Positions 8,388 through 27,922 of a DNA stretch of 64,000 nt are shown piece by piece. The DNA is from Dictyoglomus thermophilum H-6-12. Its GTDB lineage: Bacteria > Dictyoglomota > Dictyoglomia > Dictyoglomales > Dictyoglomaceae. The stretch's first letter is position 1. Each line of letters opens with the position of its first letter. The notes beneath the pieces are model-generated. The model made no database searches, was not told the origin of the DNA, and saw only the letters and a program-made list of their open reading frames with translations. The position numbers and the translations under genes are program-made. The stretch covers positions 62,001-126,000 of the forward strand of contig NC_011297.1 in NCBI RefSeq assembly GCF_000020965.1, read 5' to 3'.

Positions 8388-9023
8388 TTGCCTAAGAAGA
8401 CCTTTTATAACATTCCTGAGGAGAAAAGAGAGAAAATAACTCGTACTCTCATAAAATATTTTGCTGAAAAACCTTATAGTAAAGTTGATGTGGAGGATAT
8501 TGCTAAGGAATGTGGAATTGCAAAAGGAAGTATGTATCAATATTTTGAGAATAAAAAGGATATGTATTTCTATGCTATAGAGAGTGCAACAAAGAGGAGT
8601 TTGGAAATATTAAAGGATGTAAATTTTGAAAATATAAGTCTCTTGGAATATGTTAAGCAATCCTTTGAATTTAATTGGGATTTCTTATTGAAATATCCCT
8701 ATGAGTATATACTCTTAGAAAAATCAGCCTTTTATGATGATTCACCTTATAGAGAGGAAATTAGAGAGTACTATGAAAAACTTACTCACAATATTTTGTA
8801 CGATTTTGTGGTAAAAAATCAGAAGGCAGGATTTATAAGAGATGATATTCCTCCTGAGATGATAATGACATTTATCGAAGGAACTTCTTGGGCTTTTAAG
8901 AAATTTTTAGTAAGCCTTACTCGAAGTAAAGGCATGAAAATGAAAGATTTGTCTAAGGAATATGTTAAAGATCTTCAAAATTATTATCTTAAAATTTTGG
9001 AAGAAGGAATAGGGAAAAAATAA
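8388..9023 (+). CDS. TetR/AcrR-family transcriptional regulator
   Basis: 211 residues with a TetR helix-turn-helix (VDVEDIAKECGIAKGSMYQYFENKKDM, about residues 28-54; the recognition helix precedes YQYF) and a helical ligand domain. The start is TTG, chosen from the AAGGTG ribosome site 7 bases upstream. The TAA stop is also the first three bases of the terminal truncated CRISPR repeat, so the array trailer abuts the gene. No neighbouring operon indicates its target or ligand. Confidence 0.85.
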   Translation: MPKKTFYNIPEEKREKITRTLIKYFAEKPYSKVDVEDIAKECGIAKGSMYQYFENKKDMYFYAIESATKRSLEILKDVNFENISLLEYVKQSFEFNWDFLLKYPYEYILLEKSAFYDDSPYREEIREYYEKLTHNILYDFVVKNQKAGFIRDDIPPEMIMTFIEGTSWAFKKFLVSLTRSKGMKMKDLSKEYVKDLQNYYLKILEEGIGKK

Positions 9024-11143
9024 ATCCCACATAGTTCAGATCAAACACACTATCGATTAATTCAATATTCAGCAATTCGTGGTTTAAATCCCACATAGTT
9101 CAGATCAAACCTTTCATCTTCATCCCAATCAGCATCTTTCCAATCACGTTTAAATCCCACATAGTTCAGATCAAACGGGAGAGAAAAAATAAAAGCCTCT
9201 GTAGAAAAGGAGTTTAAATCCCACATAGTTCAGATCAAACTCCTTCTACTCGCAAGTCTATTGTCTTTGCAACAGCGTTTAAATCCCACATAGTTCAGAT
9301 CAAACTTCTAAGCGTGTAAACAAGGTTTTTGAAGACGCAAAGTTTAAATCCCACATAGTTCAGATCAAACGCGCGGTTTGAGTTTTCTATAATTCCTAAA
9401 ATTTCAGGGTTTAAATCCCACATAGTTCAGATCAAACGTTAACATCCCCTTCTATATATAGAGTGTCAAAATTGTTTAAATCCCACATAGTTCAGATCAA
9501 ACCCAGTACCTGCCAACCCTGAAGCGCTTGTTGTAGCAGTTTAAATCCCACATAGTTCAGATCAAACGAGACTGCAGATGCTCTAAAACTTTTTGTTGCA
9601 GGTAGTTTAAATCCCACATAGTTCAGATCAAACGTTGTGTAATGGTACGCTTTCCAGTCTTCTCTTTCTTGTTTAAATCCCACATAGTTCAGATCAAACG
9701 ATGATGGAAATTTTGAACATGAAGGTGTTGGAGAAGTTTAAATCCCACATAGTTCAGATCAAACTTCAAATAAATCTTGTCATCAAGCATAGTAAGTTTT
9801 GTTTAAATCCCACATAGTTCAGATCAAACTTACCATTGTAGGGGGTGGTTAAATGTTTATAAAGATGTTTAAATCCCACATAGTTCAGATCAAACCAGAG
9901 CTAAAGAGCTTTATTCTACCTAAAAAGAAAAAGTTTAAATCCCACATAGTTCAGATCAAACCTGCCTAAAAGATACTCAATTGGTACTTCTAACGCAGGT
10001 TTAAATCCCACATAGTTCAGATCAAACTGAAAGAAAAAGAAACAAAATCAATCGTGGTTTCCAAGTTTAAATCCCACATAGTTCAGATCAAACATAGCGA
10101 GTTCGATAAATACGGAACTCCTAACGTTGAGTTTAAATCCCACATAGTTCAGATCAAACGTCCTTCTCCATAATCTCAAGAATGCTTTTGTAAAGGTTTA
10201 AATCCCACATAGTTCAGATCAAACACAGTAATTCAGGAGGGATATTTTTCATTGCTTACTCGGTTTAAATCCCACATAGTTCAGATCAAACTGCCAAAAC
10301 CAAAAGACTTTACAGAAAAAGAAGAAAGTTTAAATCCCACATAGTTCAGATCAAACCATATACTCGTTTCCGTTATCGAGTAGAGAAATAATGTTTAAAT
10401 CCCACATAGTTCAGATCAAACTCCAACAATTCCACAAATTTTCACTCTCACTTCATGAGTTTAAATCCCACATAGTTCAGATCAAACTGCTGCGAGAGTA
10501 CAACGGCAGTTAATGCTTTCTGCGTTTAAATCCCACATAGTTCAGATCAAACGGTTATATGGCAACATAAAAACATCCCCGCCCTCTACGTTTAAATCCC
10601 ACATAGTTCAGATCAAACTTATGAGAAGACAAGAACAAAAAACAAATATCACGACGTTTAAATCCCACATAGTTCAGATCAAACTGAAATGTGAAATAAA
10701 CTTTCTTTTCTTGATCATTGTTTAAATCCCACATAGTTCAGATCAAACTGCTTTTGTTAGACCTGGTGCGGTTATCAAAATGTCGTTTAAATCCCACATA
10801 GTTCAGATCAAACACAGAGGAACTACCACAATTCCCGATTAGGCAAAAAGAGTTTAAATCCCACATAGTTCAGATCAAACGATAACAAGCAACTTCCTTA
10901 AGGTATGTTTGCAGAAGTTTAAATCCCACATAGTTCAGATCAAACAGGCTTGAGAGTGGAGAGATAGTGGCGAGGACAGTAGGTTTAAATCCCACATAGT
11001 TCAGATCAAACTCTCAGAGGTGGTTCTTTCCACCCTCCACATTACGCACGTTTAAATCCCACATAGTTCAGATCAAACTTCCGATTTTAAGGTTGCCCTT
11101 ATTCCCTTAGTACAGTTTAAATCCCACATAGTTCAGATCAAAC
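9021..11143 (-). CRISPR. CRISPR array, 33 repeats of 29 bp, 32 spacers of 35-38 bp
   Basis: On the plus strand each repeat starts GTTTAAATCCCACATAG and ends TTCAGATCAAAC; internal repeats look identical. The repeat at 9021-9046 is the exception: it lacks the first three bases (26 nt). Repeat starts include 9082, 9148, 9212, 9277 and so on to 11115-11143. The reverse complement starts GTTTGATCTGAAC and ends GGGATTTAAAC, giving an ATTTAAAC 5' handle like other type I-B crRNAs. With the degenerate repeat at 9021 and the AT-rich leader at 11144-11359 beside cas2, this indicates minus-strand transcription with new spacers entering at the 11143 side. Confidence 0.98.
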
Positions 11144-13143: not shown

Positions 13144-15411
13144 TTAAATTATATTTTCTGTGTTTTTGTCTGGTAGAAGTCCTAATTCTGTGTCGTAGTT
13201 CAAATTTATTAAAAATATTCTTAGCTCTAAGTCTTTCTCCAAGGAGATTAGATTTTGAGCATAATCTTTAATCTCCAACGGAATATTTACTGTCAAATCT
13301 TTAAGTTCTCTTAGCCCTTGGAGTTTTTTCAGGGCGTCTTTTGAGTATATTTTTTCTTGTATTTCCAATAATTTTTCTTTGTTGTTTTCATAAACTTCTA
13401 CAGGAATTGCTTCTATATTAGAAATTCTTCTGAAAATTCTTTCGGCTTCTAGTTTATTTTCTGCTTTATATTCCAATTTAAGCAACTTTTGATAATCTCT
13501 AAATTTTTTGTAATACTTTGTGTTTGCTAATTGTTCAAGAGAGTATAGCCTTTCTACTAACATCTTTTTAATTCTTTCATCTAGCTTTTTTGTGTTAATC
13601 TCGGAAAGAATATTATGGGTAGCATCAATTAATGCAGAATCGTAGACGTGGCTTTTTCCTGAGGGTTTTCCTAAACTTCCAGCAATCACAATATTAGGGA
13701 TATCTTCTGAATACTCTCTTTTTCTATATACTCTTCCCATTCTTTGTATTAAGGTATCTAAAGGAGCAAGTTCTGAAAATAGAATATCAAAATCTATGTC
13801 TAGTGATGCTTCTACAATTTGTGTAGAAATCCATATACATGGAGCATGGGATTTTTCATCTAGGAAAATTTGTTTTTCTTTCATATTTCTGTCTTTCCAT
13901 ATGAACCTTGAATGTAGAAGATTAACTTTAAGTTCTTTATTTGAACGTAAAAGGTTATATATACTTTGAGCCTTTTTCACAGTATTTGTTATAACTAAAA
14001 CTTTTTTTCCTTTCTTGTAATTTTCAATTATTTCGCTAATCATGTCTTCTATATCTTTCTCAGGATAATATCTTATAAAGTGAGAGGAGTTGTTAGAGGC
14101 TTCAACTTCTATAATTTCGGAAATATCTTGTAATTCATTTCTTAAAATTGGATAAAAGGTGGCACTCATTAAGCAAAATTTCCCTCCTACGTTATCTATT
14201 CTTTTTAGGCCTTCCACAATCACAGCTAAGGATTCCGAAGTATATGCTTGAGGTTCATCTACTACTATTTTTGTGTATGGGAAAATAGAGAATATCTTTT
14301 CATAGCCAGGGAAGTGGAAGAAAGATATAAAGATTTGATCCGCAGTGCTAACGGTTATAGGATAGGATAGTTGCCTAGAAGAAGTTACATGATGTAAGTG
14401 TTCTTGAAAATCATTCTCTAATGTTCTTATTTCATCAAGACCATAATAGGCGCAGTCACCATGTAAAAGTCCTATTTTGTCTTTTCCAAAAATCTCTTTT
14501 AGTCTTTCATACATAGCATTGACAGAAACTCTTAAAGGAAGAGTATAAACTGCTTTATCATTACCTATCCAGTTAACTGCAAATTCTGTTTTCCCGCTTC
14601 CTGTGGGAGCAACGAGTAATATATTCTTGTCTCTTAGGTGAATAGCCTTTTTCTGAAATGGTTTTAAACCAATAGAATTTGGTTTTTTAATTAAATAGGA
14701 AATTAAAAGTTTTTCACAATTTCTAATTCTTTCTTTTTCTATTTCTACATGAGCTGATGAAGAATGGTCTAATCTATACAAAAGACCTTTTAACATGATG
14801 AATTTTAATTTCTTTTCTAAATTTTCGATTTTTCCTCGATCTCTGAGTAACCATAGATATTCATTTCCTAAACTCTCACTATTTCCAAAGTTTTCATCAT
14901 ACTTTTTTACCCAAGAAAGGTGATCTACTTTATTTAGAACTTCTTCTTTTATATAGTCTTTAAAATATTCCTCATTAAAGTCTAAATCTCTATAGTGATG
15001 GTATATTATTGCATATATGAGTGTAAATATGTCTTCATATTCTGCGATTTTTTTAGATAATGTCTCTTTAGGAAGAAGCGCTGGAGATAGGAAGTTATGA
15101 GGTATCTCTTGAGAAAATCTAGACTCTATCTTTTCTTTTCCTAAAAGTTCTCTAATTTTATTTTGAAATAAAGAATTTATTTTACCTAGATCATGATAAA
15201 GTGCTGCAATTTTTAGAATTTCCCAAAACTTTTCTGAATTGTAGTTTTCTTTCTCAAGTACTCTTTTTATTTCTTCATAATAGCGCTCTTTTAATAGTTC
15301 AAGATTTTTCAGAAGTAAAGAAGTATGCTCTTCTAGGGTTTCTGCTACGATCTTTCCGTTTTCATAATATGTTTTCGCATAAACAATATCAAGATTCCCC
15401 AGGGAAATCAC
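13144..15411 (-). CDS. cas3: CRISPR-associated helicase-nuclease Cas3 (type I-B)
   Basis: 755 residues: an N-terminal HD nuclease (EHTSLL near 28, YHDLGK near 73, later IYHHYRDL) and an SF2 helicase with the Q-like GLKPFQKKAI, Walker A APTGSGKTEF (about 267), DEPQAY motif II, SAT motif III and QRMGRVYRK motif VI. It is recruited by Cascade to unwind and degrade target DNA. The GTG start lies inside the end of cas5 (23-base overlap), which couples translation. All catalytic motifs appear intact. Confidence 0.95.
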   Translation of the reverse strand: MISLGNLDIVYAKTYYENGKIVAETLEEHTSLLLKNLELLKERYYEEIKRVLEKENYNSEKFWEILKIAALYHDLGKINSLFQNKIRELLGKEKIESRFSQEIPHNFLSPALLPKETLSKKIAEYEDIFTLIYAIIYHHYRDLDFNEEYFKDYIKEEVLNKVDHLSWVKKYDENFGNSESLGNEYLWLLRDRGKIENLEKKLKFIMLKGLLYRLDHSSSAHVEIEKERIRNCEKLLISYLIKKPNSIGLKPFQKKAIHLRDKNILLVAPTGSGKTEFAVNWIGNDKAVYTLPLRVSVNAMYERLKEIFGKDKIGLLHGDCAYYGLDEIRTLENDFQEHLHHVTSSRQLSYPITVSTADQIFISFFHFPGYEKIFSIFPYTKIVVDEPQAYTSESLAVIVEGLKRIDNVGGKFCLMSATFYPILRNELQDISEIIEVEASNNSSHFIRYYPEKDIEDMISEIIENYKKGKKVLVITNTVKKAQSIYNLLRSNKELKVNLLHSRFIWKDRNMKEKQIFLDEKSHAPCIWISTQIVEASLDIDFDILFSELAPLDTLIQRMGRVYRKREYSEDIPNIVIAGSLGKPSGKSHVYDSALIDATHNILSEINTKKLDERIKKMLVERLYSLEQLANTKYYKKFRDYQKLLKLEYKAENKLEAERIFRRISNIEAIPVEVYENNKEKLLEIQEKIYSKDALKKLQGLRELKDLTVNIPLEIKDYAQNLISLEKDLELRIFLINLNYDTELGLLPDKNTENII

Positions 15412-16090
15412 CTACCAGCTCTACCAAGTCTCCTTCGGAATCTAAAATTACCTCGCCAAAAAGTGTTCCTTCTTCTATGTAGACTACATCTATTTTTTCA
15501 AAATATCTCAAATTTTCTTCAATTCTGTATTTGAAAGGTATCTTGAAATTGATGCCAATTAGGTTGTATTTATCTGCAGTTTCCTTCTTAAGATATATAG
15601 GATACTTTATTTTATAGAAATCAATACCAATGTCCTTTCTTTTGACTTCTACGAAATCTATTTTGTCAATCCGTGCCATATCTTCATGTCTTCCTATAGA
15701 AGGAAATGTATCAAGCAACATTGTTTTTATTTTTTCTAAAAGACTATACTCCATATTAATATGTAGAATTAGAGATACATTCTGTAGATTTGCAACATAG
15801 AAGGGAGATTTGACTATAGTTTTTTTGTATTCTGGAAGAAATATTAAATCTTTTTTTTCAGGACGAGGTCTATCGAATTTATAGAAAGTTTGTAAGTCGT
15901 ATACTATGCTTTCATATGTTCCTTGTATAGAGATACTGAGAGGAATATATTCTTGAGCTTGTAAGATTCTATGAATCCAACCTCTTATATTGGAATAAGT
16001 TGGAAGAGGAAAAGTATCTATAAAACTGTAAGATAGAGGCTTTCTATAATTGGCGAACTGTTGATACACCTTTAACTTAAGCACTTTCAT
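15389..16090 (-). CDS. cas5: Cascade subunit Cas5 (type I-B)
   Basis: 233 residues of the RAMP/Cas5 family. The N-terminal strand begins VLKLKVYQQFANYRKP, followed by PTYSNIRGWIHRIL, matching the N-terminal Cas5 signature in which the protein caps the crRNA 5' handle. It sits between cas7 and cas3 with a 14-base overlap to cas7 and 23 bases to cas3. Processing of pre-crRNA here should be by Cas6, not Cas5. Confidence 0.9.
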   Translation of the reverse strand: MKVLKLKVYQQFANYRKPLSYSFIDTFPLPTYSNIRGWIHRILQAQEYIPLSISIQGTYESIVYDLQTFYKFDRPRPEKKDLIFLPEYKKTIVKSPFYVANLQNVSLILHINMEYSLLEKIKTMLLDTFPSIGRHEDMARIDKIDFVEVKRKDIGIDFYKIKYPIYLKKETADKYNLIGINFKIPFKYRIEENLRYFEKIDVVYIEEGTLFGEVILDSEGDLVELVGDFPGES

Positions 16091-16976
16091 AGAACTCTTG
16101 TACTCCTTCTTTTATGTCTTTAAAGAAAGTGTTTATGTCTTTTGCATTTTCAAATTCTTTTTCATTTTCCCAGTACCCTTTTAATAAACCAATATGCGTG
16201 TAATCTTTAATCGAAATCCCATTAATACTGATATTTAAAACACTATTAATTAATTCTGTATTTATTTTGAATCTTTTGGTAGAACTGTCTAAGCAAATTT
16301 TGACTCTATTTAAGAAAAATGGATTCTTAACTGGATATATTCCTCCAATTACAAATATAGGGTTTAAATTCTCTATACGTCCTTTAATTTCTCTATTCAT
16401 AACTTTTAAGGCTTCTAGGATTTTTTGTGCTCTTTCAATTCTTGTTTTTTTATCTAATTCTATGTTTTCATTTTCATCTTTACCTAACCTGTCTAGATCT
16501 ATGGTTACAGTATAGGTATATAGAGAATAGTGTTGCTCAAGTTGGAAAATGTTAGGATCAGAATTTGATCTATCAGCAAAATTTTTATTAGATCCAAATT
16601 CTAGATCGTTGTAGTAAGGTTCTAAGGAGATTGCTGGTGAAAATTTTACTACTGCAGAACGGGTTAAAGCTCCTTTTCCTTTTAATGTTTTCATGTATCC
16701 AAAGAAATCAACCTCTTCATAATCTTTTATATTAGCTTCTTCTTTAAATTGAATAACTCCTTTTTCCTTAGTTGGTGTTAGTGGTGCATCTTGCATTCCA
16801 AACATATTTTTAAGGGTTTTAAAAAGCTCATACCTTAAAGCCTGACGAGACATGTAAGTTAAACTGTATCCTTCTCTGCTTAATTTTTTTAATTCGGAGA
16901 TATTTCCTACTCCTTCACCGTAATTTAGGCTCATAGCCTCAAAAATTATGGTTAGGGTTAAACCACCTTTTTTCAT
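16077..16976 (-). CDS. cas7: Cascade backbone Cas7 (Cst2/DevR family)
   Basis: 299 residues starting with the RAMP strand LTLTIIFEAMSLNYGEGVGN and continuing with YMSRQALRYELFK, typical of Cst2/DevR-type Cas7 of the I-B Tneap subtype. About six copies would coat the crRNA spacer. A strong GGAGGGG ribosome site precedes the ATG, and the gene overlaps cas5 by 14 bases. Confidence 0.92.
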   Translation of the reverse strand: MKKGGLTLTIIFEAMSLNYGEGVGNISELKKLSREGYSLTYMSRQALRYELFKTLKNMFGMQDAPLTPTKEKGVIQFKEEANIKDYEEVDFFGYMKTLKGKGALTRSAVVKFSPAISLEPYYNDLEFGSNKNFADRSNSDPNIFQLEQHYSLYTYTVTIDLDRLGKDENENIELDKKTRIERAQKILEALKVMNREIKGRIENLNPIFVIGGIYPVKNPFFLNRVKICLDSSTKRFKINTELINSVLNISINGISIKDYTHIGLLKGYWENEKEFENAKDINTFFKDIKEGVQEFYESA

Positions 16977-16991
16977 ATTTTTCCCCTCCTT

Positions 16992-17300
16992 TTAGTTTTC
17001 GTTATTTTGGGAAGTATATTTGGATAAAAGTCCATTTACAAAACTATATCCATAAGCAAGAAAGAGATCTTTCTCATTAAGAGCTTTGACAAGTAAAGAA
17101 GGAACTTCGAGAGAATAAGTCATGTAGAGCCTTAATATGATGTTCATAAAACTATGTACATCTTCTGTTCTTAGACAAGAAAGAAGTTTGTAAGTCAGAG
17201 ATGGAATTTTATTTTCAGAGTTTTCAGAAATGAGTTTATTAGCTATTTCTTCTCCCTTCTTGAACATAAACCAAAGTTGTTCTTCATTTTTAGAACTCAT
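16992..17300 (-). CDS. cas11b: Probable internal gene for small Cascade subunit Cas11b
   Basis: Inside cas8, in the same frame, an ATG at 17300 is preceded by a strong ribosome site (AAAGGGGTGA, minus strand of 17305-17314). It would yield a 102-residue, mostly helical protein starting MSSKNEEQLWF. In several type I-B, I-C and I-D systems the small subunit Cas11 is known to be translated from an internal start within the large-subunit gene. No separate cas11 gene exists here, so this is the natural candidate. Support is the ribosome site and family precedent. Confidence 0.75.
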   Translation of the reverse strand: MSSKNEEQLWFMFKKGEEIANKLISENSENKIPSLTYKLLSCLRTEDVHSFMNIILRLYMTYSLEVPSLLVKALNEKDLFLAYGYSFVNGLLSKYTSQNNEN

Positions 17301-18668
17301 TTTTTCACCCCTTTCATATTTTTTAAATTTTTGGATGTAATCCTCAATTATTATGTTTAAGATGTTTAAATGTATTGGAGAGTAGTAGGTTTTAACATCT
17401 TTATTCCCCTTTATACTTTCTAAAAGAAGGTACTCTAAAAAGCTTAAATAACCGTAACTTAAAGTATTAGAGAGAATTTTCTCTAAGAATTCTAAAGTTA
17501 CGTTTTTGATTATCTCTTTAATACTATCTTTAATACTATATCTTTTAATACTATATCTTATATTAATAAGATTTTTAAAGTTTTTTTCAGCATGCTCTTT
17601 TAGAAATTCAGCCTTTGCTCTGCTTATGTTAAAAGAAAAAACTTTTGGAAGTACGTCTTTATTAGTTAAGTCAATTTCTATAAAAGCTATACCTTGTAGT
17701 CTATGAGTACTTTTTTCATATTCCTCCCGTAGTAGTAGTTCGCTGAAAAATTCTACAAAAATATTTTCAGTGAGATTCTTTTTAAGCTTTTCTTGTAATA
17801 GTAAATTCTTTTTGTAAAGATCAATTACTGAAGTATCGCTATTTACAAAGAAATACTTATTTTCTAATACAGATTCAGTAAAGCCTCTAAAAGTACAAAA
17901 GTATATTAATTCACATATTTCACATAAAGGAAGTTTTGCGTTAAAATTCCAAAAAAAGTTTAGTGCATCGGTGTTTACTCCTGTAAAAGGAGAGATCCCT
18001 GTATCAAAACTTGTATCCTTTTTAGCATATCTTTCACCACAGTTTATACATAGAATAGATCTTTTAATTTTTTTTGTATCGTTTATTATTTTATCTTCGA
18101 AGTCTTCTTTAAATTTATTCTTATAGTTGGAAGTAATTGTTCTATTTAGGAAGCTTTTTTGACCATATATCTTTCCTAAGTATATCTTTACATCATTCTC
18201 TATAAGGATTTGTTTGTTTTTCTCAGCAACTTCTAAAACTTTTAATATATATTCTCTAAATAATTCAGGATTTCTTTTAACCTCATTTAGAGGAGGTAAC
18301 TGAAAATCTTTCTTTAAGAAATCCTTAAGTTTTGAGAAGTTGTCTATTCGATTTTTGAGCTCTTCATAACTTTTTTCTATGTCCTTATATAATGTTTCTT
18401 TTTTTATATCTTCTAATATTTCCCTACAATAATCTATGAATCTATCGGTTCTTCTATACCTCTCATATGCAGAATTGAAATACTTATCTGAAAAACCTTC
18501 CAATACTTCTCTTTCAAATTCTATATAGTTTTTTCCTATATAAATATTTTTCCCATTAGAGAAGGTATTTTCTCCCTCTTTTAAATCTTCTTTTCCTTCA
18601 AACAAGATTGATAAGAAACCAATTATACCTGCATTAAAAAGCCAGTCCGAGAGGTAGACTCTTTCCAC
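16992..18668 (-). CDS. cas8b: Cascade large subunit Cas8 (Cst1 / Cas8b1 type)
   Basis: About 558 residues. The family assignment rests on its position between cas6 and cas7/Cst2, its N-terminal VERVYLSDWLFNAGIIGFL, and a zinc-finger pair (CINCGERY near 205 and CEICELIYFC near 244), all usual in Cst1/Cas8b1. It recognises the PAM and recruits Cas3. The GTG at 18668 was chosen because GGAGGTGG lies 6-7 bases before it. A longer TTG frame (18692) runs back inside cas6. A strong internal start at 17300 probably makes a separate small subunit. Confidence 0.88.
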   Translation of the reverse strand: MERVYLSDWLFNAGIIGFLSILFEGKEDLKEGENTFSNGKNIYIGKNYIEFEREVLEGFSDKYFNSAYERYRRTDRFIDYCREILEDIKKETLYKDIEKSYEELKNRIDNFSKLKDFLKKDFQLPPLNEVKRNPELFREYILKVLEVAEKNKQILIENDVKIYLGKIYGQKSFLNRTITSNYKNKFKEDFEDKIINDTKKIKRSILCINCGERYAKKDTSFDTGISPFTGVNTDALNFFWNFNAKLPLCEICELIYFCTFRGFTESVLENKYFFVNSDTSVIDLYKKNLLLQEKLKKNLTENIFVEFFSELLLREEYEKSTHRLQGIAFIEIDLTNKDVLPKVFSFNISRAKAEFLKEHAEKNFKNLINIRYSIKRYSIKDSIKEIIKNVTLEFLEKILSNTLSYGYLSFLEYLLLESIKGNKDVKTYYSPIHLNILNIIIEDYIQKFKKYERGEKMSSKNEEQLWFMFKKGEEIANKLISENSENKIPSLTYKLLSCLRTEDVHSFMNIILRLYMTYSLEVPSLLVKALNEKDLFLAYGYSFVNGLLSKYTSQNNEN

Positions 18669-18669
18669 T

Positions 18670-19473
18670 TCATACCACCTCCACCATACCAAAGCCCTGA
18701 GCTCTTCGTAGTCCCATTCCCAGTTGATATAACCAGTTTAAATCTTCCGGATCTCCAGAAAGCTCAAAAGTTCCAGAGAAGCAAGTAAAGGTATAAAGCT
18801 TTGGCTCTATATTCTTTTCCCTTACTCTATGTTTGACAACTTCTTTTCTGACCTTTAAAGGTTTAAATTTGAGTCCTATTTTTAATCCTTGTCCTCTTAT
18901 ACTTTTCAATATGGAGTCAGAGATATAATTAAGTTCTTTTAAAAAGTAAACAAATTTTTCGCTTTCTTCAGGTAAAGGTTGATTATTCTCTACATCTATA
19001 GGAAGAAGTGGTTTATCATTTTTATCCTCTATAAGTATGGGAGAGAGAGTTTTAAATATCACTTTATCTTCTTTTATTTTTCTTTCTCGAAGAAGTATAA
19101 TATTGTTTCTTTTGGAGATTCCTCCAAGCCCCATCTTAAAAGGATATAGTTTTTTGCTCAAAAGACCATTATAGAGGTTTATTAAAAATTCATAATCTAC
19201 ACTTGAAATATAAAGTTCTATAGGGCTTTTGATATATAAAACATCCTTATCTTTCTTGAATTCCTCTTTGTCATGTAGGAATCTTACTGCAAAGCAAAAG
19301 GGTTTTCCTGCTTTGTTGTTTTTTATTTCTCCTTCCTCTTCATATTGGTAGATTTTCTTGAAATATTCTTTTCCAAAATCTGTTGCTTTTAGTGCTTCTT
19401 TTATAAAGCTCATAAAGTGGTTACGATAATCAATAGGAAGTAGATCCCCTTCTAAGGTTACTTTTATTCTCAA
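18670..19473 (-). CDS. cas6: CRISPR pre-crRNA endoribonuclease Cas6
   Basis: 267 residues of the RAMP superfamily, ending in the glycine-rich loop GMGLRRAQGFGMVEVV that marks Cas6. An N-terminal His in YRNHFMSF is the likely catalytic residue. It cuts the repeat to leave the 8-nt ATTTAAAC handle. First gene of the cas operon. The start is TTG, placed by GGGGGG about 9 bases upstream. The stop abuts the chosen cas8 start. Confidence 0.92.
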   Translation of the reverse strand: MRIKVTLEGDLLPIDYRNHFMSFIKEALKATDFGKEYFKKIYQYEEEGEIKNNKAGKPFCFAVRFLHDKEEFKKDKDVLYIKSPIELYISSVDYEFLINLYNGLLSKKLYPFKMGLGGISKRNNIILLRERKIKEDKVIFKTLSPILIEDKNDKPLLPIDVENNQPLPEESEKFVYFLKELNYISDSILKSIRGQGLKIGLKFKPLKVRKEVVKHRVREKNIEPKLYTFTCFSGTFELSGDPEDLNWLYQLGMGLRRAQGFGMVEVV

Positions 19474-20885: not shown

Positions 20886-20923
20886 GGGCTCTCTCTCCTC
20901 AAAAGGGAGAGAGCCTTTTTTAT
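20886..20923 (+). terminator. Intrinsic terminator after alcohol dehydrogenase
   Basis: A G+C-rich stem (GGCTCTCTC / GAGAGAGCC) with a short A-rich loop is followed by six T residues, 22 bases after the stop codon at 20864. Confidence 0.92.
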
Positions 20924-20925
20924 TA

Positions 20926-20934
20926 TGGTATAAT
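20926..20934 (+). promoter_or_regulatory. Extended -10 promoter, probably giving a leaderless mRNA
   Basis: TGG-TATAAT (extended -10, TGn) ends 9 bases before the ATG at 20944. Transcription should start within a few bases of the ATG, and no Shine-Dalgarno site fits in between. The second copy of this gene has the same arrangement at 23885-23893. Confidence 0.7.
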
Positions 20935-20943
20935 AAAAGTCAA

Positions 20944-21984
20944 ATGAGAGGGGTTTTATACTTTTTATCTTGGCTTATAGGTTGGATATATTACAGAAAT
21001 CTGAGATTTCTCAAGAGGGAAGGGGAAATTTCAGGGGATTATAAAATTTCGGTGATAATTCCAGCGAGGAATGAAGAGGAGAATTTAGGTAAATTACTTT
21101 CTTTATTAAAAAATCAGACTTATAAGCCTTATGAAGTAATAGTAGTGAATGACAATTCAGAGGATGATACAGAGGGAGTAGGTGAGAGGAATGGAGCGAG
21201 GGTGATATCGTTATATGAGGAACCACCTGAGGGGTGGGTAGGTAAGAACTGGGCGATATGGAATGGATATTTAGAGTCGAGAGGGGACATTTTATTATTT
21301 TTAGATGCTGATGTAGAGCCGAGTAGTGAGTTTATAGAGGTAATGCTAAGTAGTTATGAGAGGTATGGGGGTTTAATTTCCTGTTGGCCTTATCAGAGAT
21401 TTGAAAAATTCTATGAACATCTAAATTTTATCTTTAACATCGGAGCTGTAATCACTATGTGTGCTATTAAAAAAGAGGGAGCTTTTGGTCCAGCCATGAT
21501 GATTTCGAGGGAGGATTATGAAAGAGTAGGAGGACATAAAGAGGTTAAGGATAAGGTGGTTGAAGATCTTCATTTTGGAAATCTTTGTATAAAAAAGGGT
21601 ATTCCAGTAAACAATTTTTTGGGGGGAGAGTATATTAAATTTAGGATGTATCCTAAAGGGTTGATGGATCTTATTGAGGGATTCTCTAAAAATTCCTCTC
21701 AAGGAGTTATGTCTCTTAGTTTTAGTAAGTTTTTGTATCTCCTAATATGGTTTTATGGGGTTTTTGGGAGTTTTGCTTTTGAAAATCCTATAAATTTGTA
21801 TTATCTTTTGTTTTCTTTTCAGTTTTATGTAATGACTCGTAGGTTAGGAGATTACAATCTGATAGACTCAGTAATATATCCTATTCATTTTATGTTCTTT
21901 ATTGCGGTTTTGATATATTCTTCGATAAAAACTTTTCTTTTTAAATCAGTCTCATGGAAGGGGAGAAAAATAAATGTGGGATAA
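20944..21984 (+). CDS. Membrane glycosyltransferase family 2 (copy A)
   Basis: 346 residues: an N-terminal membrane helix, a GT-A catalytic domain (SVIIPARNEEENLGKLL at 37-53, NDNSEDDT, and the metal-binding DADVEPS near 122) and several C-terminal helices. It should transfer a sugar from a nucleotide or lipid-linked donor to a membrane lipid. The closest resemblance I see is to CrtQ/HpnB-like lipid glycosyltransferases (inference). It overlaps the next gene, a PlsY-like acyltransferase, by 11 bases. Residues 9-161 are almost identical to the copy at 23902, while the C-terminal half is clearly diverged. Confidence 0.85.
   Translation: MRGVLYFLSWLIGWIYYRNLRFLKREGEISGDYKISVIIPARNEEENLGKLLSLLKNQTYKPYEVIVVNDNSEDDTEGVGERNGARVISLYEEPPEGWVGKNWAIWNGYLESRGDILLFLDADVEPSSEFIEVMLSSYERYGGLISCWPYQRFEKFYEHLNFIFNIGAVITMCAIKKEGAFGPAMMISREDYERVGGHKEVKDKVVEDLHFGNLCIKKGIPVNNFLGGEYIKFRMYPKGLMDLIEGFSKNSSQGVMSLSFSKFLYLLIWFYGVFGSFAFENPINLYYLLFSFQFYVMTRRLGDYNLIDSVIYPIHFMFFIAVLIYSSIKTFLFKSVSWKGRKINVG
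20969..21429 (+). repeat. Near-identical direct repeat, copy 1 (gene-conversion tract)
   Basis: 461 bases align without gaps to 23927-24387 with about seven differences (about 98.5% identity, counted by eye). Identity falls sharply at both ends even though the coding frames continue. It covers the N-terminal half of the two glycosyltransferase genes. Confidence 0.9.
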
Positions 21985-22573
21985 AGTTATAATTATTTTT
22001 TTGCAATTTCTTTCAGGATCCATTATGTATTCCTATCTTATTGCAAAACTTTTAAACATAGATTTGAGAAAAGTAAGGGATGGAAATCCGGGAGCTTACA
22101 ACTTATGGATTTCTACTAACTGGAAAATAGGTTTGATAGGAGCGCTTCTTGACTATTTTAAAGGTATTTATCCTCTTCTTTGGTTTGTGAGATATAAGGA
22201 TATAAAAGATAAGTGGCTTATTACAGTATCTGCTCTTGCAGGAATATTTGGCCATGTATTTTCTCCTTTTATGGGAGGGAAAGGCGGAAAAGGGGTTGCA
22301 GTTTCTTTTGGGGCATGGACGGTAGTAACAGGGCTTGAGGGACCCCTTTTTTTAGGCCTTTCTATGTTCATATTTAATCTTGCTAAGATGCATGGTGCAA
22401 CTCCTGAGGAGGATGCTTTGAAAGTTCTTTATGGATTTTTGTGTCTTATTCCTTATGTTGTATATAAAGTCTTTACAGGACATCTTTATATACTTCTTCT
22501 TTATCTTGGGAATTTTGGAATAATAGCATATTCTCATAGAAATGAACTTCTAAAAGTTTTTGCAAATGCATAA
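21974..22573 (+). CDS. PlsY-like membrane acyltransferase (copy A)
   Basis: 199 residues, about six helices, with the PlsY blocks DGNPGAYNLW (normally GSGNxGxTN), GHVFSPFMGGKGGKGVAVSFG split around the FKGGKG loop, and a late SHRNEL. Authentic PlsY moves acyl groups from acyl phosphate to glycerol-3-phosphate. This divergent copy, coupled to a glycosyltransferase, may acylate a glycolipid instead (inference). Its TAA stop is in the same frame as the photolyase GTG start, four codons downstream. Confidence 0.8.
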   Translation: MWDKVIIIFLQFLSGSIMYSYLIAKLLNIDLRKVRDGNPGAYNLWISTNWKIGLIGALLDYFKGIYPLLWFVRYKDIKDKWLITVSALAGIFGHVFSPFMGGKGGKGVAVSFGAWTVVTGLEGPLFLGLSMFIFNLAKMHGATPEEDALKVLYGFLCLIPYVVYKVFTGHLYILLLYLGNFGIIAYSHRNELLKVFANA

Positions 22574-22585
22574 ACCTTTGCAAAA

Positions 22586-23887
22586 GTGTTTAATAGAGTC
22601 TTATTTTTATTTTATAGAGATTTGAGAATAAAAGACAATACTGCATTTATCAAGGCTTGTGAGGATTCTAAAGAAATTGTTCCCTTGTATATTTTAGAAA
22701 GACATAACTTTAATAAATATAGTTTTGAATTTGTAATATCTGCATTAGGTTATGTAAATTTTGAGCTAAATAAGTTAGGCTCTTTTTTGTACTTAGTTGA
22801 GAGGGGCTTTAACGAGGAGACTTTTGAGTTTTTAAGGGAGAAGATTGGATTTGATGCAATTTATCTTAGTAAAGATTACTTATGGAGTTTTGAAGAGAAA
22901 GAAAAACTTTTAAGAAATTTCTGTAGAGAAAAGGGAATTGAACTGAGGTTTTTTGAGGGTAATTTTTTAGTCTCTCCTAATTTAATCTCACAAACTAAAG
23001 TTTTTACTCCTTTTTTTAAAAAGTGGTCAGCTTATTTGGGTGAGATAAGAAGAAAAGATTTTAATTTTTCAAAGTTGAATACTCCTATTTTAGAATTGAG
23101 TAAATTTGAAGATTTTGAATTTTCTAAAAAAGTAAGATTAGATTTAATAGAGTGGGGATTTAAAAGGTTAGAGAGTTTTGATTTTGATGTTTATGATGAG
23201 AAAAGAGATTTGTTGTACTGTGATGGAACTTCAAAACTTTCAGCTTATATAAACTATGGAGTTATTTCTATCTATGATGTTTACGAGAAGGTTAAAAATT
23301 CTAAGAGTTCTCAATTTCTAAGGGAGCTTGCTTTTCGTGAGTTTTGGTATCACATTAGAATGCATTTTCCAGAGACAAGAAATTTAGAGTTTCAAGAAAA
23401 AACAAGAAATATAGAGTGGTTATATCGAGAAGATTGGATTAGGAAATTTGAGAATGCTGAGACAGGATATCCTATAGTAGATGCAGGTATTAGGTGCCTT
23501 AAGACTGAGGGTTGGTTACATAATAGGTTAAGAATGATCTTAGCTTCTTTCTTTACAAAAACTCTTCTTCATGATTGGAGAATAGGAGAGGAGTTTTTTA
23601 AGGATTATCTGGTAGATTATGATGAGGTTCTTAATATTCAAAATTGGCAGTGGTCTGCTTCGGTAGGTGCAGATCCAAGACCTCTAAGGATTTTTAATCC
23701 TATGATACAATCCTCAAAATTTGATCCTTATTGTGAATTTATTAAAAAATATCTTCCTGAATTAAAGGATGAAGATTGTAGAAAAATACATGATCCTTTG
23801 AAGTACAAGCTGAAATATTATACTCCCATGGTTGATTTTTATGCTCAAAAAGAATTAGCAATAAGAAAGTACAAAAAAATTTTTTGA
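22586..23887 (+). CDS. Deoxyribodipyrimidine photolyase (class I)
   Basis: 433 residues. The N-terminal Rossmann antenna domain begins with LFLFYRDLRIKDN. The C-terminal FAD domain has ELAFREFWYHI and the strongly conserved NWQWSASVGADPRPLRIFNP. It repairs UV-induced pyrimidine dimers using light and FADH-. The GTG start has no good ribosome site and probably relies on coupling with the upstream PlsY-like gene. Its place between two duplicated gene pairs suggests it was caught inside the duplication. Confidence 0.92.
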   Translation: MFNRVLFLFYRDLRIKDNTAFIKACEDSKEIVPLYILERHNFNKYSFEFVISALGYVNFELNKLGSFLYLVERGFNEETFEFLREKIGFDAIYLSKDYLWSFEEKEKLLRNFCREKGIELRFFEGNFLVSPNLISQTKVFTPFFKKWSAYLGEIRRKDFNFSKLNTPILELSKFEDFEFSKKVRLDLIEWGFKRLESFDFDVYDEKRDLLYCDGTSKLSAYINYGVISIYDVYEKVKNSKSSQFLRELAFREFWYHIRMHFPETRNLEFQEKTRNIEWLYREDWIRKFENAETGYPIVDAGIRCLKTEGWLHNRLRMILASFFTKTLLHDWRIGEEFFKDYLVDYDEVLNIQNWQWSASVGADPRPLRIFNPMIQSSKFDPYCEFIKKYLPELKDEDCRKIHDPLKYKLKYYTPMVDFYAQKELAIRKYKKIF

Positions 23888-23893
23888 TATAAT
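23885..23893 (+). promoter_or_regulatory. Extended -10 promoter, probably giving a leaderless mRNA
   Basis: TGA-TATAAT ends 8 bases before the ATG at 23902 and overlaps the photolyase stop. There is no ribosome site between. The layout matches the promoter of copy A at 20926, although the surrounding bases differ. Confidence 0.7.
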
Positions 23894-23901
23894 TTTTTTA
23901 A

Positions 23902-24951
23902 ATGAGAATTATTTTGTTTTTATTTTCTTGGCTTATAGGTTGGATATATTACAGGAATCTGAGATTTCTCAAGAGGGAAGGGGAAATTTCAGGGGATTAT
24001 AAAACTTCGGTGATAATTCCAGCGAGGAATGAAGAGGAGAATTTAGGTAAATTACTTTCTTTATTAAAAAAGCAGACTTATAAGCCTTATGAAGTAATAG
24101 TAGTGAATGACAATTCGGAAGATGATACAGAGGGAGTAGGTGAGAGGAATGGAGCGAGGGTGATATCGTTATATGAGGAACCACCTGAGGGGTGGGTAGG
24201 AAAGAACTGGGCGATATGGAATGGATATTTAGAGTCGAGAGGGGACATTTTATTATTTTTAGATGCCGATGTAGAGCCGAGTAGTGAGTTTATAGAGGTA
24301 ATGCTAAGTAGTTATGAGAGGTATGGGGGTTTAATTTCCTGTTGGCCTTATCAGAGATTTGAAAAATTCTATGAACATCTAAATTTTGCTTTCAATTTAG
24401 TCTCTGTATTTTCTATGGCGTTTTTAGGTAAAAAAGAGGGAGCTTTTGGTCCAGCCATGATGATTTCGAGAAAGGATTATGAAAGGATAGGAGGACATAA
24501 GGAAGTTAGGAATAAGATAGTAGAGGATATGGAGTTTGCTAAAAAATGTTTAGAAGAGGGTATTTCTGTAAACAATTTTTTGGGAGGAGAATACATTAAG
24601 TTTCGAATGTATCCTCATGGGATTAAAGATCTATTTCAAGGATTTAGCAAAAATATGGCAAAGGGTGCTTTTTCTATCAATATTGTTAATTTTCTTCTAA
24701 TTTTTCTTTACATGACTGGAGTATATGGAAGTATTTTTTATTTTAGAAACACGATTTTTAATTTTTTGTATATTCTCTACGCTATACAATTTTCGGTCAT
24801 TCAGAGAAGACTTGGAGACTATAAGTGGTATGATTTTCTTTTTTATCCATTACATTTTTTGTTTTTTCTCTTAGTATTTACTTATTCAATTTTAAGAGTA
24901 TTTTTTGTTAAGACTGTAGTATGGAAGGGGAGAAAAATTCGTGTGGGTTAA
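23902..24951 (+). CDS. Membrane glycosyltransferase family 2 (copy B)
   Basis: 349 residues with the same layout as copy A: N-terminal helix, GT-A domain with SVIIPARNEEENLGKLL and DADVEPS, and C-terminal helices. Only two residues differ from copy A between about 9 and 161 (I35T and N57K), but the rest is much more diverged, including the segment after HLNFAF and the transmembrane tail. Catalysis is probably the same, with acceptor choice altered by the C-terminal half (inference). It overlaps its own PlsY-like partner by 11 bases. Confidence 0.85.
   Translation: MRIILFLFSWLIGWIYYRNLRFLKREGEISGDYKTSVIIPARNEEENLGKLLSLLKKQTYKPYEVIVVNDNSEDDTEGVGERNGARVISLYEEPPEGWVGKNWAIWNGYLESRGDILLFLDADVEPSSEFIEVMLSSYERYGGLISCWPYQRFEKFYEHLNFAFNLVSVFSMAFLGKKEGAFGPAMMISRKDYERIGGHKEVRNKIVEDMEFAKKCLEEGISVNNFLGGEYIKFRMYPHGIKDLFQGFSKNMAKGAFSINIVNFLLIFLYMTGVYGSIFYFRNTIFNFLYILYAIQFSVIQRRLGDYKWYDFLFYPLHFLFFLLVFTYSILRVFFVKTVVWKGRKIRVG
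23927..24387 (+). repeat. Near-identical direct repeat, copy 2 (gene-conversion tract)
   Basis: Partner of 20969-21429, offset 2958 bases, about seven mismatches and no gaps. Recombination between the copies would delete one glycosyltransferase half, the first PlsY-like gene and the photolyase. Confidence 0.9.
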
Positions 24952-25564
24952 TCTTTTAGTGATATTATTACAATTTCTCTCAGGCTCCATCATGTACTCT
25001 TACATTATAGCAAGGATAATGAAGGTAAATCTTTCGAAGATACGAGATGGAAATCCAGGGGCTTCTAATTTATGGAGAGCATTAGGTTGGAAGTATGGAG
25101 TTTTGGCACTACTACTTGACTATCTTAAAGGGGTTTTTCCTCTTGCGATTTTTATATCCTTGGGAATTGTCAAGGATAATTTGATTATTGCTTTATCTGC
25201 TCTTTCTGGAGTTATGGGGCATGCTTTCTCTCCTATGTTGGGATTTAAAGGTGGTAAAGCAGTAGCTGTTTCTTTTGGAGCTTGGTCTGTTCTTACTAAG
25301 TGGGAGGCTCCAACAATCCTTGGAACTGTTTTTACTATTTTTACTCTCATAAGACCAAAAGGTACCACCGTGGGAGAAGATGCCTATAGGGTTTTTCTTG
25401 GATATATTTTTCTCTTACCTTATGTGCTTTACAAAATCTTTTTATCAGGTTTTAAAGATCTTCATCTTCTTCTTTTTTATATAGGAAATTTTGCTATTAT
25501 CTTATACAAACACTATAAGGATTTGTGGGGATATTTTAGGGAAAGAGAAAGTAATAAGTTATGA
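24941..25564 (+). CDS. PlsY-like membrane acyltransferase (copy B)
   Basis: 207 residues, about six helices, with DGNPGASNLWRALGW, GHAFSPMLGFKGGKAVAVSFG split over the substrate loop, and a final YKHYKDL in place of the usual HRxN. It is paralogous to the gene at 21974 but much less similar than the glycosyltransferase N-terminal halves are. The GTG start overlaps the glycosyltransferase stop. A bidirectional terminator follows. One of the two copies could be the cell's PlsY proper; the window cannot decide. Confidence 0.8.
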   Translation: MWVNLLVILLQFLSGSIMYSYIIARIMKVNLSKIRDGNPGASNLWRALGWKYGVLALLLDYLKGVFPLAIFISLGIVKDNLIIALSALSGVMGHAFSPMLGFKGGKAVAVSFGAWSVLTKWEAPTILGTVFTIFTLIRPKGTTVGEDAYRVFLGYIFLLPYVLYKIFLSGFKDLHLLLFYIGNFAIILYKHYKDLWGYFRERESNKL

Positions 25565-26203: not shown

Positions 26204-27922
26204 ATGAGAAATGGGTTAAAAGGCTTAAGTTTTATAGAGGTTTTAATAACCGTTTTCATAATCGGGATAATTATCCTTGGGTTAGTCAATGTTTTATCAC
26301 TATATACCGATGTTTTCCTCTTTAAAACCGATGAAAGAGAATCTATCTCAAATCTTGATATGATAATGGATAGACTTGCTCGAGATATAAGGCAGGGAAG
26401 AAGGGTTTTATCAATAAGTACTTATACCCTTACTATAGAACTTAGTACTGGGGTAACCCATACTTATTCATTAATAACAGGAAATGATGGGAAGAAATAT
26501 TTTGGGGTTGATGGACAAATTCTTGCGGGCCCAATAAATGAAATTGTATTCTCTGGTAGGAAAGATGATCTTACCTATACTACTAATGCCTATGATGTAA
26601 GGGTAGTGACTTTTACTATAACCATGGCTGATGGAAGAAATATGTCAAGTACAATAGCTTTGAGGGCAGAAGTGCCTAAGGTGGCAGGAGGAGTGGTTAT
26701 AACGGAGATAATGTATTATCCTCCAGATAGAGATAAAAATTCTGATAGAACGACTCCCTCCAATTGTCAATTTGTGGTTTTATATAATAATTCAAATAGT
26801 CCTGTAGATCTTAGAGGATGGAGTATAAATGGAAATGCCTTTTCTACACTGGTGAGTGGCACTTGGACTCTTTATCCAGGAAAATCAGCAGTTATAGGAT
26901 CCTCTGGATCAAATCTTATTGATACCTACTATTTCCCCTTACCTCAGTATGCTACATACATAAGAACATCGAGCTCAGGTTTAGGAACAGGTGGAAATGC
27001 CTTACCTACTTGGGGTACTAATACGATAACAATAAGGGATAGCTTAGGTAATGTGATAGATCAAGTTTCATATTCTAATACATGGGGCGGCTATCCTAAA
27101 AGTACTTCTGGACAATATAGAGACTATTACTCTCTTGTAAGAAAGTCTTTGATGGGGAGTTCTCAAGATCCTAATAATTGGGGAGATTCTCAGAATTTGA
27201 ATTTTGTTAGTTGTCAAGGTAATGTGGATTATGTTTGCTATTGCTTAATCCCTAAGCTTGTGATTACTGAAGTTATGTATTTCCCTTGTCCTTATGTTAT
27301 TTTGGGTTGGTCAAATACAAATCAAAACGAGCGTGAATATATTGAGATTCATAATCCTACATACTCTTCTATAGATTTAACTATAGATTGGAGTAAGGAT
27401 AATGCTTATTGTGTTTATTCAACCTCAATTTCAAATTATATCTACGACTCGACTAAATGGACACTTGCTCCAGGAGACTATGCTGTAGTGAGTAGTTCTG
27501 CTGCAAATATACAACAGTATTATGGCTTAAGTAGTAATATTATTTATATGAAGACAAATGGTCAATCTTTAGCTTCACCTACTTATACAAATCTTCCTGA
27601 TACGTCCTTTACTATCACTCTTTTACAAAGAAGAAGTGAGTATAATACTCCTAATAAGGCTTATACTATTGACTATTTTTATTATTCTCCTTCTTTAGGA
27701 GGCTATCCTTATACTTCTTATTCTCTCGATAGATATTATTCTATTGAGATTAAAAATTTAGGACTTCTTGGTTTATTTAGAAGAGGAGATAATTATGTCC
27801 AGAATGTCTCTTCTTCAACTAAACTTTGTTACAGTGTATTTATTTCGTGGGAAAATAACAATCAAGGAAAAAGGTTCGAGGTTTACTGCACTCCTGGAAC
27901 TAAAAATTCTGTTTCACCATAA
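26204..27922 (+). CDS. Pilin-like protein with two lamin-tail (LTD) domains
   Basis: 572 residues. The N terminus is a type IV prepilin signal: KG before LSFIEVLITVFIIGI, with the cut expected after Gly7 and Glu at +5, then a long hydrophobic helix. A minor-pilin-like domain (to about 155) is followed by two lamin-tail-like beta domains, starting near GGVVITEIMYYPP (about 162) and KLVITEVMYFP (about 350). Lamin-tail domains in bacteria are often attached to extracellular enzymes and surface proteins. It is likely a surface minor pilin or pseudopilin displaying binding domains. No other pilus gene is nearby. Confidence 0.75.
   Translation: MRNGLKGLSFIEVLITVFIIGIIILGLVNVLSLYTDVFLFKTDERESISNLDMIMDRLARDIRQGRRVLSISTYTLTIELSTGVTHTYSLITGNDGKKYFGVDGQILAGPINEIVFSGRKDDLTYTTNAYDVRVVTFTITMADGRNMSSTIALRAEVPKVAGGVVITEIMYYPPDRDKNSDRTTPSNCQFVVLYNNSNSPVDLRGWSINGNAFSTLVSGTWTLYPGKSAVIGSSGSNLIDTYYFPLPQYATYIRTSSSGLGTGGNALPTWGTNTITIRDSLGNVIDQVSYSNTWGGYPKSTSGQYRDYYSLVRKSLMGSSQDPNNWGDSQNLNFVSCQGNVDYVCYCLIPKLVITEVMYFPCPYVILGWSNTNQNEREYIEIHNPTYSSIDLTIDWSKDNAYCVYSTSISNYIYDSTKWTLAPGDYAVVSSSAANIQQYYGLSSNIIYMKTNGQSLASPTYTNLPDTSFTITLLQRRSEYNTPNKAYTIDYFYYSPSLGGYPYTSYSLDRYYSIEIKNLGLLGLFRRGDNYVQNVSSSTKLCYSVFISWENNNQGKRFEVYCTPGTKNSVSP

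Follow-up and report, generated by a model that had tools for sequence, protein, structure and literature searches.

A 64,000-nucleotide window of the genome of Dictyoglomus thermophilum, whose genus lives in hot springs, carries two tandem gene pairs, A and B, each consisting of a membrane glycosyltransferase (GT) gene and a gene for a PlsY-like acyltransferase. We find that the catalytic half of the two GT genes has been homogenised by gene conversion between old paralogues and that this conversion is, almost certainly, both real and recurrent, having also taken place in Dictyoglomus turgidum. The four genes (positions are those of the window) are as follows.

20944..21984, plus strand: GT-A, membrane glycosyltransferase, GT2 family, 346 amino acids; open reading frame (ORF) with PF00535, E=1.7e-22; D. 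turgidum orthologue at L043:7424-8464
21974..22573, plus strand: PlsY-A, PlsY-like acyltransferase, 199 amino acids; PF02660, E=1.5e-28, alignment and pocket residues
23902..24951, plus strand: GT-B, membrane glycosyltransferase, GT2 family, 349 amino acids; PF00535, E=3.6e-22, structure model; D. turgidum orthologue at L043:9170-10219
24941..25564, plus strand: PlsY-B, PlsY-like acyltransferase, 207 amino acids; PF02660, E=5.4e-32, alignment and pocket residues

An initial annotation of this DNA had described two pairs in the same order, each with an 11-base overlap of its GT and PlsY-like genes, and the ORF positions bear this out; all five ORFs of the locus, including a photolyase gene between the pairs, lie on the plus strand, and the same overlap is shared by the pairs of D. 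turgidum and by those of G005 and G006, relatives with a single copy. The annotation had also reported a 461-bp tract with about 98.5% identity between the two GT genes, which we find to be 462 bases long with 7 mismatches (455/462 bases match). The tract and the segments that follow it are laid out below.

20968..21429, plus strand: conversion tract in GT-A, codons 9-162, 98.5% identity to 23926-24387
23926..24387, plus strand: conversion tract in GT-B, partner of 20968-21429
21430..21468, plus strand: type-specific block of GT-A, codons 163-175, unconverted in both species and within a predicted hydrophobic helix (156-176)
24388..24429, plus strand: type-specific block of GT-B, one codon longer than that of GT-A
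21469..21509, plus strand: second identical island in GT-A, 41 bases, reaching to about codon 245 in D. turgidum
24430..24470, plus strand: second identical island in GT-B, 41 bases

Sliding identity along the two genes falls abruptly at 21429, in mid-gene, from 98.5% to about 61% directly beyond the edge. Outside the tract and the island the GT genes share about 50-65% of their nucleotides, and PlsY-A and PlsY-B are 68% identical in nucleotides and 51% in protein, in keeping with the strong divergence first noted for these parts. When the variable sites were shuffled 10,000 times, no run as long as the one observed arose, which rules out chance as the cause of the tract; constraint alone is ruled out by the synonymous sites, at which divergence (synonymous substitutions per site, dS) is 0.06 in the tract versus about 2 past codon 246.

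The closed genome of D. turgidum (G001; 1,855,560 bases) has GT-A, PlsY-A, GT-B and PlsY-B in direct tandem, with an inter-pair spacer of 116 bases that holds no photolyase gene (locus L043). Codons 10-162 of its two GT genes, a run of 458 bases, match without a difference, with tract borders as in D. thermophilum; codons 163-176 are diverged, and 152 bases (codons 177-227) with a single mismatch follow. Between the species the tract is about 83% identical (about 17% different), compared with 98.5% and 100% between the paralogues within each species. In the tract, paralogues differ by a dS of 0.06 in D. thermophilum and 0.02 in D. turgidum, as against 0.92-1.00 between species, so homogenisation took place after speciation, lineage by lineage, and, by dS, in no more than the final few per cent of the species' separate history; beyond codon 246 the paralogues are separated by a dS of 1.0-2.1. 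The same mosaic emerges when every variable site of the four GT genes is scored as following the species or the copy type (A or B). Codons 9-162 hold 72 species-pattern and no type-pattern sites, codons 163-180 hold 10 type-pattern sites and one species-pattern site, codons 181-245 return to the species pattern (18 to 0), and from codon 246 to the end type-pattern sites number 57 and species-pattern sites 4. Gene conversion is thus marked in three ways, by tract similarity within species that exceeds that of orthologues, by an excess of synonymous identity, and by flanks that retain an older, type-wise phylogeny.

Trees of the separate gene parts agree with this. For the C-terminal half of the GTs, the two A genes form one group and the two B genes another, which also takes in the single-copy genes of G005 and G006, members of another genus of the family; for the N-terminal half, all four genes group by species, next to G005 and G006. 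The PlsY tree has the pattern of the GT C-terminal half, A joining the relative G002 and B not. In approximately unbiased (AU) tests, with t for D. thermophilum and u for D. turgidum, the N-terminal half rejects {tA,uA} (p ~1e-133) and {tB,uB} (4e-9), the C-terminal half rejects {tA,tB} (1e-4), and PlsY rejects {tA,tB} (9e-39). The A and B units therefore split well before D. thermophilum and D. turgidum did, and the proposal of recent conversion on old paralogues is supported, on firmer ground than when first made, since the C-terminal half and PlsY group by type and the N-terminal half by species. In G002 an OsmC gene lies directly after the A-type pair, and in the other two species it follows pair B; pair B was either gained next to A by insertion in the lineage leading to these two species, or lost in G002, whose assembly is incomplete. 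The relatives G004-G006 have one pair only, and those of G005 and G006 lie in other neighbourhoods. We lean, short of proof, toward an early transfer of the first half from B to A, because the N-terminal half of A groups with G005 and G006, whose C-terminal half is of B type. The second tract of D. turgidum probably reflects a later transfer from A to B, as codons 181-245 of its copy B are A-like.

We modelled GT-B with AlphaFold2 from 85 sequences (mean predicted local distance difference test score, pLDDT, 93; predicted template modelling score, pTM, 0.91). The model has an N-terminal helix (2-18), a GT-A-fold catalytic domain interrupted by the hydrophobic helix 156-176, and four C-terminal helices at 241-258, 261-279, 288-304 and 315-335; from their hydrophobicity and from the family, the helices probably lie in the membrane. 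Its Foldseek matches are GT2 enzymes, including membrane ones (cellulose and hyaluronan synthases and PcManGT). Both GTs have a Glycos_transf_2 domain with a DXD motif, whose D121 and D123 are invariant in the 85 sequences. Of 63 type-specific residues, 59 fall in predicted helices and 4 in the last strands, with none in 19-155 or 178-240; species-specific residues show 3 inside predicted helices and 25 outside. On this model, then, the homogenised part corresponds to the catalytic domain, while the predicted membrane part and the partner gene stay apart. The A-type block has undergone 0 nonsynonymous and 7 synonymous changes between species, which argues for selection on it, and the C-terminal half has a ratio of nonsynonymous to synonymous divergence (dN/dS) of about 0.10-0.11 between species.

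Selection probably holds the membrane parts apart. It is possible, if rather doubtful, that the conversion borders were set by neutral sequence heterology and not by selection for two specificities: high identity promotes further conversion, a one-codon indel lies in the diverged block, and a single conversion in an ancestor could explain why the two species have like borders. This rival explanation of the borders is a reasonable one even beside the silent changes of the A-type block, but purifying selection acts on the diverged parts of both types, conversion in D. turgidum has reached both sides of the block and spared it, and the spared parts match the membrane helices.

The PlsY-like partners raise the question of what the pairs make. 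GT and PlsY-like pairs are widespread, occurring among others in Thermotogota and Paenibacillus, and in 36 of 80 distant loci (Thermotogota, Bacillota and others) the GT gene is directly followed by a PlsY-like gene, mostly with overlap. We aligned 44 GT-linked PlsY-like sequences, those of the Dictyoglomus pairs included, and read their pockets using the residue roles established for Aquifex PlsY (PMC5700162; our alignment numbering is that of the paper plus 1). The acyl-phosphate pocket is largely kept, with His92 and the GGK loop in 44/44, although Thr41, the other acyl-phosphate side chain, is present in 2/44. In the glycerol-3-phosphate clamp, Lys104 is kept in all 44, Ser35 in none (Asp in 44/44), Asn180 in 1/44 and Arg45 in 18/44. 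With the acyl-phosphate pocket kept and the glycerol-3-phosphate clamp replaced, glycolipid acylation is predicted: the partner could well acylate the GT product, a glycolipid, from acyl-phosphate, and so have no part in phospholipid synthesis. It is unlikely that the partners are ordinary glycerol-3-phosphate acyltransferases, that is, redundant copies of PlsY. They do belong to PF02660, their closest solved structure is PlsY, and they retain His92, Lys104 and mostly His177; set against this are the clamp substitutions just described and the losses at Thr41, the effect of the Aquifex mutants S35A, N180D and R45A, which keep 4.8%, 3.3% and 1.1% of activity (PMC5700162), and a canonical PlsY with Ser35, Arg45, His177 and Asn180 that is encoded elsewhere in the D. 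thermophilum genome (L050) and whose D. turgidum orthologue adjoins gpsA (L135). Against the NCBIfam PlsY equivalog cut-off of 137 bits, PlsY-A and PlsY-B score 73 and 93 bits, below it. Another D. thermophilum protein, of 410 residues (L133:429-1661, minus strand; G000:C1 ~1,731,400-1,732,700), has an N-terminal PlsY domain in which Asp again stands in place of Ser35; no Pfam family matches the C-terminal half of the protein, which recalls dolichol and phytol kinases, and D. turgidum has an orthologue (L134).

The GTs resemble CruG and HpnB in their GT2 catalytic domain with DXD and in their C-terminal membrane helices, and they match these models weakly; their best scores, 79 bits against an equivalog cut-off of 600 and 75 bits against one of 379, fall far short. 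These matches and the adjoining photolyase prompted us to consider a carotenoid acceptor. No squalene/phytoene synthase was found in the genus and family genomes searched, whereas seven control genomes gave matches; we therefore rejected a carotenoid acceptor, and a hopanoid is not expected either. Gene content makes a glycerolipid or a comparable membrane lipid the likelier acceptor. Among distant relatives the pair has no common constant operon neighbour; a Rieske-type oxygenase lies beside the pair, or one gene after it, in two Thermotogota loci (L055:5699-6676 and L057:6684-7697, Pfam-confirmed for L055 only), and an amine-oxidase-type flavoprotein lies near the pair in one distant locus. 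A literature search on Dictyoglomus glycolipids and on GT/PlsY-like pairs found nothing relevant.

The explanation that we regard as highly probable as a whole is one of twin units with recurrent conversion, a shared donor module, a distinct acceptor or partner for each, and acylation of a glycolipid. Homologous recombination (gene conversion) between the direct repeats would act in both directions over time, and conversions reaching into the membrane helices or PlsY would be removed by selection or blocked by heterology. Both GTs would use the same nucleotide sugar through the shared catalytic module, and each would have its own lipid acceptor or dock with its own PlsY-like enzyme, which would then acylate the glycolipid from acyl-phosphate. 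One sugar donor and two lipid acceptors had been suggested by the initial annotation; the constant catalytic and variable membrane parts are now mapped, and the altered PlsY pocket fits, and the donor and acceptor are what we infer from these. The functional steps (shared sugar, acceptors and acylation) are predictions read from sequence. Several points weigh against this explanation. The C-terminal half does not reject a single clade of A and B of both species (p 0.11), so that the A/B split may be more or less deep beyond the speciation; the B-to-A direction has moderate support values; recurrence rests on two lineages, those of the two available genomes with both copies; neutral heterology barriers could set the borders without selection on acceptor choice; and His177 and Arg45 are partly retained, so that some phosphate-bearing acceptor is possible. 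A further step, which we offer tentatively, is that the GT-linked PlsY-like proteins form an undescribed family of acyl-phosphate-dependent glycolipid acyltransferases and that the array is modular, with a uniform catalytic module and two specificity-holding membrane/acyltransferase modules, codons 163-177 and the C-terminal helices being candidate specificity determinants.

Three other explanations of the array fare worse. The two units are arranged head to tail, with the repeats 3.0 kb apart in D. thermophilum and 1.75 kb apart in D. turgidum, and direct repeats of 460 bases could recombine so as to leave one hybrid pair; in a phase-variation-like switch, such recombination of the identical halves would regularly delete or re-create one pair, and G004-G006 do carry one pair only. 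Such a switch is very unlikely, as neither closed genome contains a hybrid or deleted form (that of D. thermophilum is one contig of 1,959,987 bases) and the single pairs of G005 and G006 lie in different neighbourhoods. If each species had duplicated the unit recently, and the C-terminal half and PlsY had then diverged fast, this would account for the tandem arrangement and for the high identity of part of the gene. We reject this as scarcely credible: across the species, orthology of the C-terminal half and of PlsY follows the copy type (57 type-pattern versus 4 species-pattern sites, and the AU tests), and C-terminal silent sites are near saturation between paralogues. Misassembly or a collapsed repeat has a negligible chance of having made the identical stretch: assemblies classically go wrong at near-identical direct repeats, and one assembly of D. 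thermophilum was compared, but the copies differ at 7 places and, far from the even divergence that the initial annotation linked to such an error, D. turgidum DSM 6724, sequenced independently (20x Sanger with 3 and 8 kb libraries, plus 454; PMC5167688), has the same mosaic and borders with its own tract sequence.

The phenomenon is of a known kind; to our knowledge, what is new is the case itself, the recurrence of its borders in both species and the changed PlsY pocket. In the release factor genes RF1 and RF2, domain-restricted conversion has been described that runs one way in some lineages and the opposite way in others, and that spares the specificity domains (PMC4530459). The Dictyoglomus genes are alike in that conversion is limited to the domain whose function the paralogues share while specificity domains are kept distinct, but RF1/RF2 is an ancient universal pair, whereas here tandem two-gene units show recent conversion at like borders in both species, with an overlapping partner that is type-specific. 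Long-lasting recurrent concerted evolution in prokaryotes has been reported for 26 genes, mostly encoding proteins of stable complexes (PMC6053082); there, too, paralogues are recurrently closer within than between species, silent sites included, but in Dictyoglomus only part of the gene is homogenised, and the text of that paper does not contain the word glycosyltransferase. As for PlsY itself (5xj5; TIGR00023), the acyl-phosphate:glycerol-3-phosphate acyltransferase, the GT-linked proteins share PF02660, His92, Lys104 and the GGK loop with it and differ in Ser35 (Asp in all), the loss of Asn180 (43/44), a variable Arg45 and the adjoining GT in the loci examined. The locus adds a precise case of conversion restricted to one domain of a bacterial gene and amounts to a clean natural experiment, in which the same parts of an enzyme were kept identical or different in two species independently, mapping shared and distinguishing residues. 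Widespread proteins annotated as glycerol-3-phosphate acyltransferases probably do not use glycerol-3-phosphate, which would correct annotation across Thermotogota and Bacillota.

One further gene lies between the pairs.

22586..23887, plus strand: DNA photolyase, outside the GT/PlsY system; no counterpart at the D. turgidum locus

Its G+C content is 29.5%, compared with 33-35%, and it fits exactly between the PlsY-A stop and a -10-like box of GT-B, which its own stop abuts. We regard it as an independent insertion, or as a gene lost in D. turgidum, that presumably has no part in the GT/PlsY system. Such -10-like boxes (TGGTATAAT and GATATAAT) stand about 9-10 bases before both GT starts (window 20920-20945 and 23885-23903), which suggests that the mRNAs are leaderless and that each pair is transcribed on its own. 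Elsewhere in the window (9000-11100 and 13144-19473), a CRISPR array of about 33 repeats (GTTTAAATCCCACATAGTTCAGATCAAAC) with a spacing of about 65-66 bases lies near a minus-strand cas operon that includes Cas6 and a CXXC-CXXC protein. The protein encoded at 26204-27922, which has a counterpart in D. turgidum, combines two lamin-tail domains (PF00932) with an N-terminus like that of a prepilin.

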